A DNA stretch of 64,000 bases, from NCBI GenBank assembly GCA_010093605.1, contig MU004186.1:2150616-2214615 (forward strand), in the 5' to 3' direction. The position numbers and the translations under genes were made by a program. Positions 6,016 through 13,461 of the stretch are shown piece by piece (the first letter of the stretch is position 1; every line of letters begins with the position of its first letter). Under the pieces are notes generated by a model. It was not told the origin of the DNA. It saw nothing but the letters and a program-made list of their open reading frames with translations, and did no database searches. Source of the stretch: Lophium mytilinum. Its lineage: Eukaryota > Ascomycota > Dothideomycetes > Mytilinidiales > Mytilinidiaceae.

Positions 6016-8211
6016 ATGGATTCCCTCAAAGACTTTGGAAACTTTCTGAACGCACAGAATGCAGTCAAGGCCATACAGATGGGCCAAATAGCTGGTCTCA
6101 TTGGCGACACCTCAAACGACCATGGGCTCAGCGCCAACAAGATTCTTGGGGAGGGTGGCTTCCTGTCGCCCCTTCAAAAGCGCATTGAGGCAAAGACGGG
6201 GATAACAGTCCCTATGGTCCTGACAGCCCTCGCCGTGTACAATTCGGGAAAGCTTGGAGGCCTTGCTTCTGAAGGTATTCGCGTCTTCCGAAGGTTTGGT
6301 ACCTCATCTATCCAGATAGATCTGCGTCATTCGCTTGCGAAAGCGGTGGATAAATGGCTGATCAGCAATTCTACCGGTAAGCAGACACCCCAGCACGTAG
6401 TCGTTGAAGCCGAAGGTGGTAGTAGTGGCGAGCAGAACGATTCAGTCAGCTCTAAACTGACCGTCTCACAACAATCAGGAGCACAATGGTTCTGGTACAA
6501 CGGCCGGGTTTTCCTGTATGAGTATGGATATCAAAACGGAGAAAGCGATCGCGCATACGGAGACTACGAAACGTTAACTCTCGTATGCTTGGGCCGTAGC
6601 CCGGCGCCGTTGACCAAGTTTCTGACTTTCTGCCAGAGCGAGGCTAGCTCCAAAGTGAAAACGACCGAGGTATTCACGTATAGCAAAGGATATATTCACG
6701 GGTCAAAACAGCCGGAAAAGCCGAGTCGCCCTATGGAGACGATTGACCTGGATCCGTTCCTCTACCTCGATATCCTGACCGACGCGGAATCATATTTCGA
6801 CGAGGAAACGCGAGCGTGGTACCACGAAAATGGGACACCCTACCGGCGAGGTTATCTCCTTTATGGCCCTCCTGGTACCGGCAAAACTTCACTGTCTTTT
6901 GCTTTGGCCGGGCGGTTTGACATTGGCCTCTACGTAATCAATCTCAACGAAGCAGAGCTTGATGACGCGAAGCTTATCGAACGATTCAGTAACCTGCCAG
7001 ATAAGTGTGTGGTCCTCTTGGAGGACATAGACGTCGCTGGTATCGTGATGGATCGTCATATGGCGCATGAGCCATCCACCGATGGTAGCTCCGGCTCAGA
7101 TCAAACCACCCTCTGGGAGGACACGAGCGGCCATCAGGTGGAGAATAGGCCACAGCCTCCAGTGGCCTCGAGAAACTCTAACCCCCAAAAGATTTCTGCC
7201 GTAAGCCTCAGTGGCCTCTTGAACGCCATTGACGGTCCCACGTCGAAGGAAGGTCGTCTTCTGATTATGACGACCAACGCACCACGAAGTCTTGACCCAG
7301 CTCTCTACCGCGCGGGTAGAATTGACAAGAAAATCTATCTGGGATACTCGACGAAGCGGACTGGTGCGATTACCTTCCGGCGAATCTTTGCCAATGATCC
7401 TTGCAATAAGTACAGCATGGACGAAATCACCGATTTTGCCCGACGATTCGGAGCCAAGGTGCCCCTTGACACTTTCACACCGGCAGAGTTACAGAACTTC
7501 TGCATGGGCTATCGCGGAAAGCCTCAAAAGGCAATCTCCGAATTCGATGTCTTCATTTCCCGACGGTTCAGCGGGGAAGATGGTTTCGAGTACGACATCG
7601 GCGACGGTGGCGGAACCGATGGTGACAATGAGCTCGAGCTCTCCGAGGATGAGGCCCTCGAAGACTTGCTGGATCTTGATTTCTCCTACCTGACACAGGA
7701 GGGGATGTCAAAGTTCCGTGTCAAGAATGGAGAGGATGTTCCCTTGGGCGACGGCTTCTCTCAAAGCTCGGATGAGCATGGAGAAGAGGCACACGAGGCT
7801 GAAGAGCGCTTCGGAGACCATACCATCCGGACGGTCTTCAGTGGACCTGCTCTTTTGGCACTTGCCAGTATCGATGAGCAGTCGAAAGGCGGGGTCCTCG
7901 ATAGCCTTCTTGCTCACTTTGACTACGACCCGGAAGAGGTCTACGGTCTGGAAGAAGAGTCCTGCAGCGAGGCGGATTCTATAAGCAACGAGGGAGAACA
8001 CCGGGGGGCTCGTTCCTATTTCGCATACTTTAGAAACAGCCTCGTCCCCGGACTCTGTCGTAGGAGCTCCACGACACCGTCGCCCTCCATTGAGTTGCCC
8101 GCCGGTTCGCGAGGACCGCGCACTCGGGGAGAGCTTGAGCGGCTAATTGCTCCACTCACCACATCAAATGGAGATCTACGAACCGTAGATCCGATGCCAA
8201 TTGTGGAATAG
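6016..8211 (+). CDS. BCS1-like AAA ATPase, intact paralogue
   Basis: Intronless gene of 731 aa. Residues ~1-240 match the BCS1 N-terminal region, including MDSLKDFGNFLNAQNAVKAI, VCLGRSPAPLTKFL and later YRRGYLLYGPPGTGKTS. The AAA domain has Walker A GPPGTGKT near residue 285, Walker B VVLLEDID near 332-339, and the downstream blocks LIMTTNAP and AGRIDKKIYLGY. A poorly conserved insert separates Walker B from the SGLLNAIDG block. The C-terminal ~200 residues are acidic and low-complexity, ending ...DPMPIVE. True yeast Bcs1 (~456 aa) inserts the Rieske protein into mitochondrial complex III. This protein is much longer and belongs to the expanded fungal BCS1-like group, whose roles are mostly unknown, so a Rieske-chaperone role should not be assumed. 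Two broken paralogues lie within 5 kb. Confidence 0.9.
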   Translation: MDSLKDFGNFLNAQNAVKAIQMGQIAGLIGDTSNDHGLSANKILGEGGFLSPLQKRIEAKTGITVPMVLTALAVYNSGKLGGLASEGIRVFRRFGTSSIQIDLRHSLAKAVDKWLISNSTGKQTPQHVVVEAEGGSSGEQNDSVSSKLTVSQQSGAQWFWYNGRVFLYEYGYQNGESDRAYGDYETLTLVCLGRSPAPLTKFLTFCQSEASSKVKTTEVFTYSKGYIHGSKQPEKPSRPMETIDLDPFLYLDILTDAESYFDEETRAWYHENGTPYRRGYLLYGPPGTGKTSLSFALAGRFDIGLYVINLNEAELDDAKLIERFSNLPDKCVVLLEDIDVAGIVMDRHMAHEPSTDGSSGSDQTTLWEDTSGHQVENRPQPPVASRNSNPQKISAVSLSGLLNAIDGPTSKEGRLLIMTTNAPRSLDPALYRAGRIDKKIYLGYSTKRTGAITFRRIFANDPCNKYSMDEITDFARRFGAKVPLDTFTPAELQNFCMGYRGKPQKAISEFDVFISRRFSGEDGFEYDIGDGGGTDGDNELELSEDEALEDLLDLDFSYLTQEGMSKFRVKNGEDVPLGDGFSQSSDEHGEEAHEAEERFGDHTIRTVFSGPALLALASIDEQSKGGVLDSLLAHFDYDPEEVYGLEEESCSEADSISNEGEHRGARSYFAYFRNSLVPGLCRRSSTTPSPSIELPAGSRGPRTRGELERLIAPLTTSNGDLRTVDPMPIVE

Positions 8212-9000: not shown

Positions 9001-9615
9001 GTTTTGACAAAAGGTCAAGAACTTGGTCAAAGGCTACGGGCTGCGTCCTAAGCATACCAGCATGAGGAAATTGTCGCCTCCACTTGACAAGCCTTTATTA
9101 TTCGCCTCCGCCCCCGACAGATACTGGTACAAAAAGAAGTGCCCGTCATACCGAAACCATTCGAGACCTGGTTTCCGGGAAACTTCGAGTGGTAGGGAGT
9201 CATCCTTGGATGTGGAATAGTTGTTCTCAACAGCTAAATGCTGAGTCTTTTTCCCAGCACAGTTGCCAATCAGCCACTTCTCGACGGCTTTGGCGAGATC
9301 ATGGCCGACATTGATTCGCACGGAGGATGTACCGAACTTCCGGAAAAGATCAATACCTCCCGAAGCTAGATCTCCCACCTTTCCTGAATTGTATACCGAA
9401 AGCGCTGTCAGGATCATAGGCAGTGTGATACCTGTCATGTCTTCGATTTGCTTTTGAATTGGCGACAGGAAGCCGTCTTTCCCTAAAAACTCGGCAGTGC
9501 TTGAACCGTCACTGCTCGGCATCTCGCCGAACATACCAGCGATCTGGCCCATCTGGAGGGCCTTCGCTGCGTTCTGGGCATTCAGAAAGGTTTTAAGGTC
9601 CTTGAGAGTTTCCAT
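9001..9615 (-). pseudogene. N-terminal fragment of a BCS1-like AAA ATPase
   Basis: The reading frame from ATG at 9615 gives METLKDLKTFLNAQNAAKAL and continues through GITLPMILTALSVYNSGK and LVCLGRSP, closely matching residues 1-195 of the intact paralogue at 6016. A TAG at 9034-9036 follows GRSP. The same frame past that stop still reads PLTKFLTFCQ, the sequence that continues the intact copy, until about 9004. Beyond that, homology ends and no Walker motifs follow. So this is a decayed paralogue cut off before the AAA domain, carrying one premature stop and a 3' truncation. It runs tail-to-tail with the intact gene. A truncated 193-aa protein could still be made, but no ATPase activity would remain. 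Confidence 0.85.
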
Positions 9616-10342: not shown

Positions 10343-10973
10343 TCACCGCCAGACGTTCTCGTCACTCTCAGGGTATAAAAAGTCAACGACTTCGTCTTCA
10401 CTTTGACCTTCAGTGACATCAGACTCAAGGCCAGGTATTTCTGCTGGTCCGGCGATTGAAATCGCTGCTTCAGGTTCTGCCAGAGCTGTGGATCTTTGGC
10501 TAGGCCCGATGACTTCATCAGTCTCTGGATGCAGACACTCAACTACTTCGTCTTCACGTTGAGCTTCATTGATTATAGGCTCAAGACTCAGTGTCTCTGT
10601 CGGCTTCAGAGTTGCTATGGCTGGCTCAGGTTCTTCCGAAGCCAGTGACCCTTGATCAAGGCTAAGGACCTCGTCAGAGTACTGCTGGAAGAACTCGATG
10701 TCTTCCTTTGAGTACTCGTATCCCGGATTGACTTCCAAGGTATCAACATCTATGCTCTCCAGAATCGGCATCGGCTCCACGACCGTGAGTTCGGTAAGTG
10801 GACTCGCATCCCATGGAGGAGGATCTTCTTCTTGTAGAAGAGTCGTTGGCCAGTGCCGAGGACGGATTCTCTCTAGAGCGGAGGGCCTTTGCAGAAGCGC
10901 CCTCGGTGTTTCCAGCACAGCAGAAGTTGCAGAAGCCAGCTTATTCGAAGCCAACCATGTAGTGCTTTGGAAG
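10343..10973 (-). pseudogene. Severed C-terminal tail of the MITE-split BCS1-like gene
   Basis: An open frame of ~207 codons directly beyond the MITE (in gene orientation), with the host codon phase preserved. It begins Q-S-T-T-W-L-A-S-N-K right after the duplicated target site. ALERIRP, then PLTEL and TVVEPMPILE parallel the C-terminus of the intact paralogue (ELERLIAPLTT ... TVDPMPIVE), which shows it is the tail of the same gene. The remainder is acidic and holds two related ~52-residue repeats, each ending EDEVVxxLxPExDE. The frame has no stop before 10345, so it has not decayed since separation. It has no start codon of its own and is probably not translated unless the element is spliced or read through. 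Confidence 0.8.
10388..10700 (-). repeat. ~156-bp tandem repeat coding acidic 52-aa units
   Basis: The blocks coding EDEVVDFLYPESDE and EDEVVECLHPETDE are 156 bp (52 codons) apart. Each is preceded by a related stretch (AEPEAAISIAGPAEIPGLES and SEEPEPAIATLKPTETLSLEP). A weaker third copy, KEDIEFFQQYSDE, precedes them. This is in-frame tandem duplication within the tail of the BCS1-like protein. Confidence 0.7.
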
Positions 10974-11546
10974 CAGGGCTCGGAATCAACCGATCGATCG
11001 ATTAGGCCTCTCGAAATCGATCGAATCGACTGCTTAATCAGCAGATGCCCAAATCAATTGAATTAATCGATTCGATATCGAATCAATCGAAGAATCGAGA
11101 TGGTTAAAGGTATTTGGAGGCTTGGCGCAGCGTATAGGTAGTATTAAGATATATAAGATAATATTGATTTTAGTTAATATCTAAATCCCTATTAAAAGCC
11201 CTTTAATACACTTTCTTATAAAGTAATAGTAGTTACAGCGGCATAATACTGCTCTATTAGAAAGATATAATAGAAGACGCACTTAATATAGTCATGTGAT
11301 ATATAAGCACGTAACAAAATGCTTATATAATATAATCTCCCGGCGAAGCACGGCCAATAAACCGCATCTTACGCGGCCAAACTGCTATTGTATTTACACC
11401 TTCAACCATGTCGATTTTCAATTGATCAGGCCTCCTGAAATCAATCGGTTGAACTGTTTCTAGATGGCTAATCAATTAAATCGAATTGCCAAGACTTCAA
11501 TTGATTTCGATCAACCGTTCGATTGGTTGATTGACTCCGAGCCCTG
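10974..11546. mobile_element. Non-autonomous hAT-like DNA transposon (MITE), 573 bp
   Basis: The ends are inverted repeats: CAGGGCTCGGAATCAA at the left and CAGGGCTCGGAGTCAA reading inward from the right (15 of 16 identical). They are flanked by an exact 8-bp direct repeat, TTTGGAAG, at 10966-10973 and 11547-11554. Eight-base target duplications and CAGGG-type termini are hallmarks of the hAT superfamily. The interior is AT-rich and contains no transposase frame, so it would need enzyme in trans. Both subterminal regions are dense in ATCGAT/TCAATTGA-like motifs, with a related AGGCCTC.TGAAATC block near 11002 and 11431. It lies inside a BCS1-like gene. The identical target duplication and the undecayed host frames suggest a recent insertion. 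Confidence 0.9.
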
Positions 11547-13461
11547 TTTGGAAGATCGATCCTGCCTTTCTGTTAGCGGCGCTAACTGATTGCTTAATAC
11601 GCGAACCGAACCCTTGCTGTACCTGAGGAGGCTGGTATACTGGCATACTTTTACGCTCAGGTGGCTCCCGTTGAGTCGCTCCGCGATTTGATACTTTGCC
11701 AGGGTTGAAGAGGTACGAGAAATCTACGCTTTCTAAGTCCGCTAGCGCTGACCTCTCGTGCTCGACATCCTCCAACTTGGTCGCCTCTTCACCGTTGTCG
11801 AGTTTCTCGGCGAGGTCATACTTGAATTGGTTGGCACCAGTCAAGCGGCCGAGCTTGTAAGCCTCAAACTCTGATATGGCTCGATGTGGCTTACCGCGCC
11901 GATCCATGCAGAAGTTTTGTATTTGTGCCGGGGTGAAGGTGTCTTTAGGCATTTGGCGGCCAAAGTCCTTCGCCATTGTTGTAATTTCGGCTTGAGTGAA
12001 TCGACCCTTTGCTCTAGGGTCGGTCCAGAAAATGCGGCGAAAGGTGATCGCTGCTGTCTCCTTAGTACAGTACCCAAGGTAGACAACTTTGTCCACGCGA
12101 CCGTCACGATAGAGCGCCTCGTCCAAGGACTTGGGGGCGTTTGTGGTCATAATGAGGAGGCGACCCTCTGGTGCTGCAGGTCCATCTATGGCATTGAGTA
12201 GTCCACTCAACGTTACCCTGGGAACTGGCACTGCTTTTTTCTTGGGAGTCGCCTTTTTAGGGACCGCATGGTTTTCGGAGCTGTGCTCGCTCCTTTGGTC
12301 TTCAGCATCTGGCTCTTTTGAATCTTCTGAAGACTCGTCTTCGTCTTTCATGCTGGTGCGGCTAATTCCGGCGGAGTCAATATCTTCCAAGAGCACTACG
12401 CATCTCTCGGGCAGATGTCCAAACCTAGTAAGTAGCCCATTGTCATCTAATCCCTGTTCGTTGAGGTTTAACACATACAGCGGCAGATCAAAGTGACTTG
12501 CTAAAGCAACACTCAGAGAAGTTTTCCCGGTTCCAGGTGGGCCGTAGAAGAGATAGCCGCGACGATGAGGCCTACCGTTTTCACGATAGTAGGACTTAGT
12601 CTCAGGGTCGAAGTAGTCCTCTGCATCTGACAAAATATCGTCGAAGTCTTTCCGGGGCAAATCTACCGTGTGTAGCGCCCTGCTGGGCTTCTGAATATGA
12701 CTGTAATAATCCGCAGTGATGTGGGCGCCGGGCTCTGCAACGTAGATGTTAGTGAACTTCATTCCCCGCTCAGATTCGTTCTGGCAATGAATCAAGAAAC
12801 TCTTCAAAGGCTCAATGCTACGACCGAGACACGAGACTAGCATATCTTCGGAATTCTTGCCTCCATGCCTGTCGTTCTTAGAAGGATGCTCTAAGAAGAA
12901 GATCCGTCCATCAAACCGGAACCATTGGAACCCGCTCGTGGGCTCAATCTGGAACATCATTCCGGTGTTACCTGGTTCCTCGGCAGGTATCTCTGCAGGC
13001 TCGTCTTCCCATCCGGAGCTCTCGTCATTATGTTGACTGCTGAGGTCAAAAGATGGTTTCAGAACCACGTGCTGTGAACCTTTGCCCCCAGTGGCCGAAA
13101 TGAGATGCTCGCTGATCGCTTTCCCCATCTTGTCGTTTCGGTTCAGACGGACAGAACATGTTCCGTGCTGCCGAATGAAAGTAGGCACCTTGGAGGTAGT
13201 ACCAGGAATTCCAGATTTATAGAGGTCAAAAGCGAACGAGACTATCGATGGGTTAAGCCCCACTTTTTCGAGTATCTTTTTATGAGACAGCAACGAAGTG
13301 TCGGCTTCGTTATCTTCTTCATCAATTGAATGGTCTTGACTTGAAGAATCGTGATCCTGATCGGAGAGGTTCTCGGCATTCTTCATTGGAGAGGCCCTCC
13401 TAGCCGTGGTTGTGTTGAGCTTGCCAGCAAGCCCGCTTACGATGTGTGCCAAAGCGAACAT
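11497..13461 (-). CDS. BCS1-like AAA ATPase, truncated by MITE insertion
   Basis: 654 codons from ATG at 13461. Walker A GPPGTGKT lies near residue 307, Walker B VVLLEDID near 350, followed by LSGLLNAIDG, LIMTTNAP and DGRVDKVVYLGY; the BCS1 N-terminal region lies upstream. The last 16 codons, after GSIF-Q, are encoded by the transposon and end at a stop inside it. Without element and target duplication (581 bp), the span 10343-13461 would be 2538 bp, exactly 846 codons in one frame. The frame stays open upstream of 13461 for ~40 codons without an ATG, so a short upstream exon is possible. The truncated product keeps the whole AAA domain and loses only the acidic tail, so it may still be functional. 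Confidence 0.88.
   Translation of the reverse strand: MFALAHIVSGLAGKLNTTTARRASPMKNAENLSDQDHDSSSQDHSIDEEDNEADTSLLSHKKILEKVGLNPSIVSFAFDLYKSGIPGTTSKVPTFIRQHGTCSVRLNRNDKMGKAISEHLISATGGKGSQHVVLKPSFDLSSQHNDESSGWEDEPAEIPAEEPGNTGMMFQIEPTSGFQWFRFDGRIFFLEHPSKNDRHGGKNSEDMLVSCLGRSIEPLKSFLIHCQNESERGMKFTNIYVAEPGAHITADYYSHIQKPSRALHTVDLPRKDFDDILSDAEDYFDPETKSYYRENGRPHRRGYLFYGPPGTGKTSLSVALASHFDLPLYVLNLNEQGLDDNGLLTRFGHLPERCVVLLEDIDSAGISRTSMKDEDESSEDSKEPDAEDQRSEHSSENHAVPKKATPKKKAVPVPRVTLSGLLNAIDGPAAPEGRLLIMTTNAPKSLDEALYRDGRVDKVVYLGYCTKETAAITFRRIFWTDPRAKGRFTQAEITTMAKDFGRQMPKDTFTPAQIQNFCMDRRGKPHRAISEFEAYKLGRLTGANQFKYDLAEKLDNGEEATKLEDVEHERSALADLESVDFSYLFNPGKVSNRGATQREPPERKSMPVYQPPQVQQGFGSRIKQSVSAANRKAGSIFQTGLGVNQPIERLIEIN

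Follow-up and report, generated by a model that had tools for sequence, protein, structure and literature searches.

What split the coding sequence of a BCS1-like AAA ATPase in Lophium mytilinum, and what is left of the protein, is the question raised by this locus. The window analysed here is the whole stretch of 64,000 nucleotides (C6:2150616-2214615) from a genome of 43.18 Mb in 24 contigs. We conclude with high confidence that cut-and-paste transposition placed a non-autonomous hAT element in this coding sequence, truncating the protein.

The element and the interrupted host gene

The element (10974..11546, 573 bp, minus strand) lies between two identical copies of TTTGGAAG, at 10966..10973 and 11547..11554. 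It carries CAGGGCTCGGA at each end, and its terminal inverted repeats, CAGGGCTCGGAATCAA on the plus strand (10974..10989) and CAGGGCTCGGAGTCAA in the minus-strand reading (11531..11546), are alike in 15 of their 16 outermost bases. The exact 8-bp duplication together with these ends fixes the insertion to the base, as the preliminary description had claimed. The strand was assigned as the counterpart of the transposase-coding strand in a 3,692-bp relative on contig C1, and the hAT assignment draws on the ends and duplication, on matches elsewhere in the genome and on terminal similarity to that relative. The element has 37.5% GC, and the ORF list contained no frame of at least 80 aa wholly within it. 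An RNA gene within the element was considered and rejected, with no Rfam match in 10900-11650 at E 0.1.

For the host gene, which runs on the minus strand, joining 13461-11547 to 10965-10343 gave 2538 bases, in phase and without internal stop, that is, an uninterrupted frame of 846 codons with the stop counted, in agreement with the earlier proposal that the host frames on both sides are still open in one phase. The ORF as it now stands (11497..13461, minus strand) encodes 654 aa, of which 638 are host residues and 16 come from the element. It had been noted that the element donates the last 16 codons and the stop, and this was borne out: the frame ends at 11497, and the first of the 16 codons borrows one base of the target site. 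The assignment to BCS1-like genes also stood, as the host protein exceeded the Pfam cut-offs (in brackets) for BCS1_N (PF08740; 58.3 bits [28.1]), AAA (PF00004; 62.6 [21.2]) and the BCS1 lid, AAA_lid_BCS1 (PF25426; 28.2 [27]). The best domain stretches are all in the retained part, at residues 91-266, 303-376 and 487-532, respectively.

The separated C-terminal part (10343..10965, minus strand) comprises 206 codons in phase and a stop. With codon usage learned from the gene's own front part, this stretch scored highest in the phase of the host (0.015 per codon, vs -0.228 and -0.365 in the other two phases and -0.087, -0.12 and -0.239 on the opposite strand), and 2 of 20000 mononucleotide shuffles left the frame open; from its phase, codon bias and open frame, the detached tail looks coding. 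Its 206 residues include 45 D/E and 11 K/R, so the acidic tail of which the AAA protein was said to be deprived is real in composition. At 10343-10600 (minus strand) the tail encodes two acidic stretches that resemble each other, EDEVVECLHPETDE and EDEVVDFLYPESDE, and look like an internal duplication. Homology support for the lost tail was sought and rejected: Pfam gave no match at E 0.1, and the comparison with seven paralogs, six of which were represented by the longest stop-free stretch per locus and may have been shortened by introns, gave no significant match. The single match, of 20 residues, is to the end of the 6016-8211 paralog and has E 0.012 as a lone comparison and 0.35 among the seven.

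A predicted transcript of the interrupted gene would be translated into the element and terminated after 16 codons, and the shortened protein would retain BCS1_N, AAA and the lid and lose its last 207 residues, the acidic tail among them. The recognised domains would be intact despite the loss, because they lie in the retained part and because the alignment with the nearest paralog (6016-8211; 44% over 563 columns) does not extend beyond host residue 588, short of the insertion at residue 638. The loss of the tail may or may not alter function. It seems to us highly improbable that the insertion produced a new allele that is useful, with the BCS1-like ATPase, minus its acidic tail and capped by 16 transposon-encoded residues, retained for altered behaviour. 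Truncation of one member of a multi-gene ATPase family by a transposon is an ordinary event. The gene belongs to a local cluster of three BCS1-like genes, at 6016-8211 (plus strand), 9034-9615 (minus strand) and 10343-13461 (minus strand). The first is an open 731-aa paralog, and the second meets a stop inside the BCS1_N region and continues as a stop-rich frame.

Related copies and a decayed hAT relative

A DNA search of the genome with the window element returned at least 10 matches, its own included, the counts from this search being lower bounds. A search for the end-sequence pattern with at most 2 mismatches gave 100 matches, compared with 45 for the reversed control; 30 of the 100 were examined for partner ends, the 70 left aside each having 2 mismatches. 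Paired CAGGGCTCGGA-type ends were present at 11 places: the window copy (573 bp), copies on C16 (584 bp), C21 (440 bp), C22 (573 bp) and C12 (197 bp), two on C1 (3,692 and 242 bp) and one of 140 bp each on C2, C6, C13 and C18. The duplication was exact in seven of them (window, C16, C21, both on C1, C2 and C6), had one mismatch on C13 and two on C12, and was not recognisable as an 8-bp duplication on C18 and C22. No two of the exact duplications have the same sequence, as separate insertions would give. The 140-bp group has at least five genome matches, including one at C16:1577816 without a recognisable partner end.

The preliminary description had suggested a search for further copies of about 570 bp, and this succeeded in part. 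The full interior of the window element recurs in one further copy found, the 584-bp copy on C16, which is 83% identical; the C22 copy, although of the same length as the window copy, has an interior that does not align with it, its ends alone matching in reverse orientation and weakly (69%), and the equal length is a coincidence. The designation as a MITE likewise holds for structure (573 bp, non-coding, inverted ends with a target duplication, ends common to the 3,692-bp C1 element) and not for copy number: many near-identical copies were not found, and one full-length relative at 83% was, these counts being lower bounds. We therefore describe the element as MITE-like with a low known copy number. 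Among eight insertion sites compared, seven of this family and one of a 273-bp family, the open frame around the window insertion is the longest, at 883 codons from stop to stop, the other seven having 36-139. The 273-bp family, a second short inverted-repeat family with ends CAGGGCTGTCAAGCAATCAA, was observed on C15 (L013:1882-2154), with an exact 8-bp duplication, and on C4 (L015:2114-2386), with one mismatch in it; a related match at C5:379488 is without paired ends.

The larger C1 element (C1:673074-676765; L009:2075-5766) is 3,692 bp long, has ends identical at 16 of 16 positions and is bordered by the exact duplication ACGTGGAC. Its ends align with those of the window element over 133 and 185 columns, at 84% and 76% identity. 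Three parts of the transposase at C21:388027 matched it (E = 8e-35, 1e-22 and 2e-16; tblastn on the 11 loci), and it was matched again when the genome was searched with the C21 transposase (3e-35). The C-terminal part of the C21 protein matches Dimer_Tnp_hAT (PF05699) at 40.2 bits, with a cut-off of 21.4. The C1 relic itself gave no match to the Pfam hAT model at a threshold of E 0.001, nor did an open stretch of 74 aa close to its C-terminal end at E 1, so its hAT identity follows from homology to the C21 protein. With this homology and exact 8-bp duplications at 7 of the 11 paired copies, the proposed hAT origin was supported. The opposite of a solitary element with no related transposase, the outcome named beforehand as speaking against that origin, was found: 11 paired copies and the transposase relic on C1.

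The longest stop-to-stop frame of the C1 relic is 79 codons. Its interior has 27% GC, a TA/AT ratio of 1.64 and a (CA+TG)/(AC+GT) ratio of 0.16, values usually taken as strong repeat-induced point mutation (RIP), and it looks like a decayed parent-type hAT element with RIP-like decay. Short tandem repeats with TATTAGCC-like units were also observed in the interior. The genome search with the C21 protein gave 14 transposase matches, 13 of which contain stops, in total 76 TAG, 51 TAA and 1 TGA; the dominance of TAG and TAA fits C-to-T change. Among the 14, the C1 relic alone lies between ends of the window-element family (at most 2 mismatches in 16 bases), and no intact transposase was found between such ends. 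The expected autonomous hAT with matching termini was thus found as a decayed 3,692-bp relative and not as an intact element. The C21:388027 element is 3,607 bp long, with candidate ends TAGGGCTGCCGTTT/CAGGGCTACCGTCA (10 of 14 positions alike) and an exact 8-bp duplication; its transposase is distributed over several frames, possibly because of introns. Contig C21 (0.61 Mb) carries 5 of the 14 transposase matches, among them the sole stop-free one, and both Pfam hAT matches obtained.

Cut-and-paste insertion would leave the 8-bp target duplication, and we infer that a hAT transposase from another copy, whichever one that was, acted in trans on the shared ends, the 3,692-bp C1 element being a probable relic of such a transposase-supplying parent. 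Against the hAT insertion stand the 4 of 11 paired copies lacking an exact duplication, the C1 relic that falls below the Pfam threshold, the lack of an intact transposase between these ends among the matches found, and the recurrence of the full interior in one other copy found.

Age of the insertion and alternative readings

The alternative that survives best takes the same hAT insertion to be an old one that has become fixed in the species, and the open tail to be a matter of chance; we regard this as possible, if somewhat doubtful. Neutral decay of the 618-base tail was simulated. At 0.1 indels per substitution, an assumed value, 52% of runs kept the tail open at 1% divergence, 15% at 3% and 4.5% at 5%, and the last two figures argue against an old insertion. 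When indels were left out, it was open in 82%, 52% and 36% of runs at the same divergences and in 13% at 10%, and an exact duplication would be expected to survive in 44% of cases at 5% divergence and in 19% at 10%; the figures at 5% and 10% leave room for an older event. Given the assumed indel rate, the divergence since insertion is probably below about 5%. The open tail is compatible with a recent event, and recency itself is not thereby demonstrated.

Base composition bears on both sides. When the window and C16 copies are compared, C/T differences stand before A more often than conserved C does (20 of 46, vs 32 of 155; Fisher p = 0.0036), the pattern that RIP would give. This would suit an old insertion, as does the distance of the nearest copy found. 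The middle of the window element is RIP-like (TA/AT 1.19, substrate index 0.90), whereas the element as a whole is not (0.76 and 1.38). Neither are its flanks (TA/AT 0.68-0.75, substrate index 1.16-1.25), which speaks against great age. It is probable that the window copy and the C16 copy have both been affected by RIP-like mutation, either before their insertion or since. Polarising their differences by the C1, C21 and 242-bp copies gave 8 window-private and 11 C16-private differences in 227 columns; these were not used for dating because the outgroups may be RIP-altered and most of the inferred changes are T>C or A>G. The earlier suggestion of a very young, possibly polymorphic insertion was not demonstrated from this one genome, since no near-identical copy was found and the bound of about 5% divergence hinges on assumed indels.

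A second alternative is that the element is removed as a new, introner-like intron and that a near full-length protein persists. The tail is indeed still open and in phase, and 21 frame-keeping GT..AG combinations exist when donors are taken between a point 200 bases ahead of the element and the stop, and acceptors up to 60 bases past the element, GAG acceptors left out. However, the donors before the stop are poor against a simple fungal consensus with weights set by hand, and for the best of them, GTATGC at 11648, no acceptor keeps the frame. Among the pairs that do keep it, the best-scoring start at GTAGAT or GTTAGC, with scores of 0.15 and -0.29, and their branch-point-like motif is just 10 bases from the acceptor; the implied introns measure 503-788 bases in the 20 pairs listed of the 21. 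Because no good fungal donor before the stop has a frame-keeping acceptor, splicing of the element appears unlikely; we give this reading very little credence.

That the repeats arose by chance or through an assembly artefact, with no insertion at all, is scarcely credible: under the loose criterion used to scan the window (exact duplications of 8-mers with at least 3 different letters; 11-bp inverted ends with at most 1 mismatch, 100-1500 bp apart) the element was the single site, and 40 first-order Markov re-samplings gave 2 chance sites altogether, but the same ends recur in other copies that have exact duplications of their own, and a misjoined duplicate would not differ by 17%, as the window copy does, from the nearest relative found.

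Comparison with known systems

The hAT superfamily of DNA transposons includes Ac, hobo and Tam3, and Restless in fungi; an 8-bp target duplication is typical of hAT integration, as is a CAG start of the terminal inverted repeats. The window element resembles this superfamily in its 8-bp duplication and short inverted ends, and it has a relative whose transposase is homologous to a carrier of Dimer_Tnp_hAT, as expected; it differs in that the window copy is without transposase and the sole relative found with one between matching ends is decayed. The host resembles BCS1-like AAA ATPases in having PF08740, PF00004 and PF25426 above cut-off, and its similarity to the seven paralogs ends before the insertion point.

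By title, no fungal-transposon paper appeared among the part of the literature occurrences of CAGGGCTCGG that was covered, and none on a fungal element among those on non-autonomous hAT elements in fungi, although the family may still be described. The analysis adds to one fungal genome a non-autonomous hAT family whose limits are clear and whose parent shows RIP-like decay, and the insertion provides a ready marker for testing whether hAT activity has been recent in Lophium mytilinum.

For the MITEs of Mycosphaerella graminicola, an 8-9-bp duplication is described for one of 13 families (PMC4522978). The likeness to the element described here is one of structure, and the full interior is present here in two copies found only. 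Within these bounds, the M. graminicola elements are likewise short, with inverted ends and a target duplication, and some of their families were grouped by common ends around different interiors (PMC4522978), like the copies in L. mytilinum.
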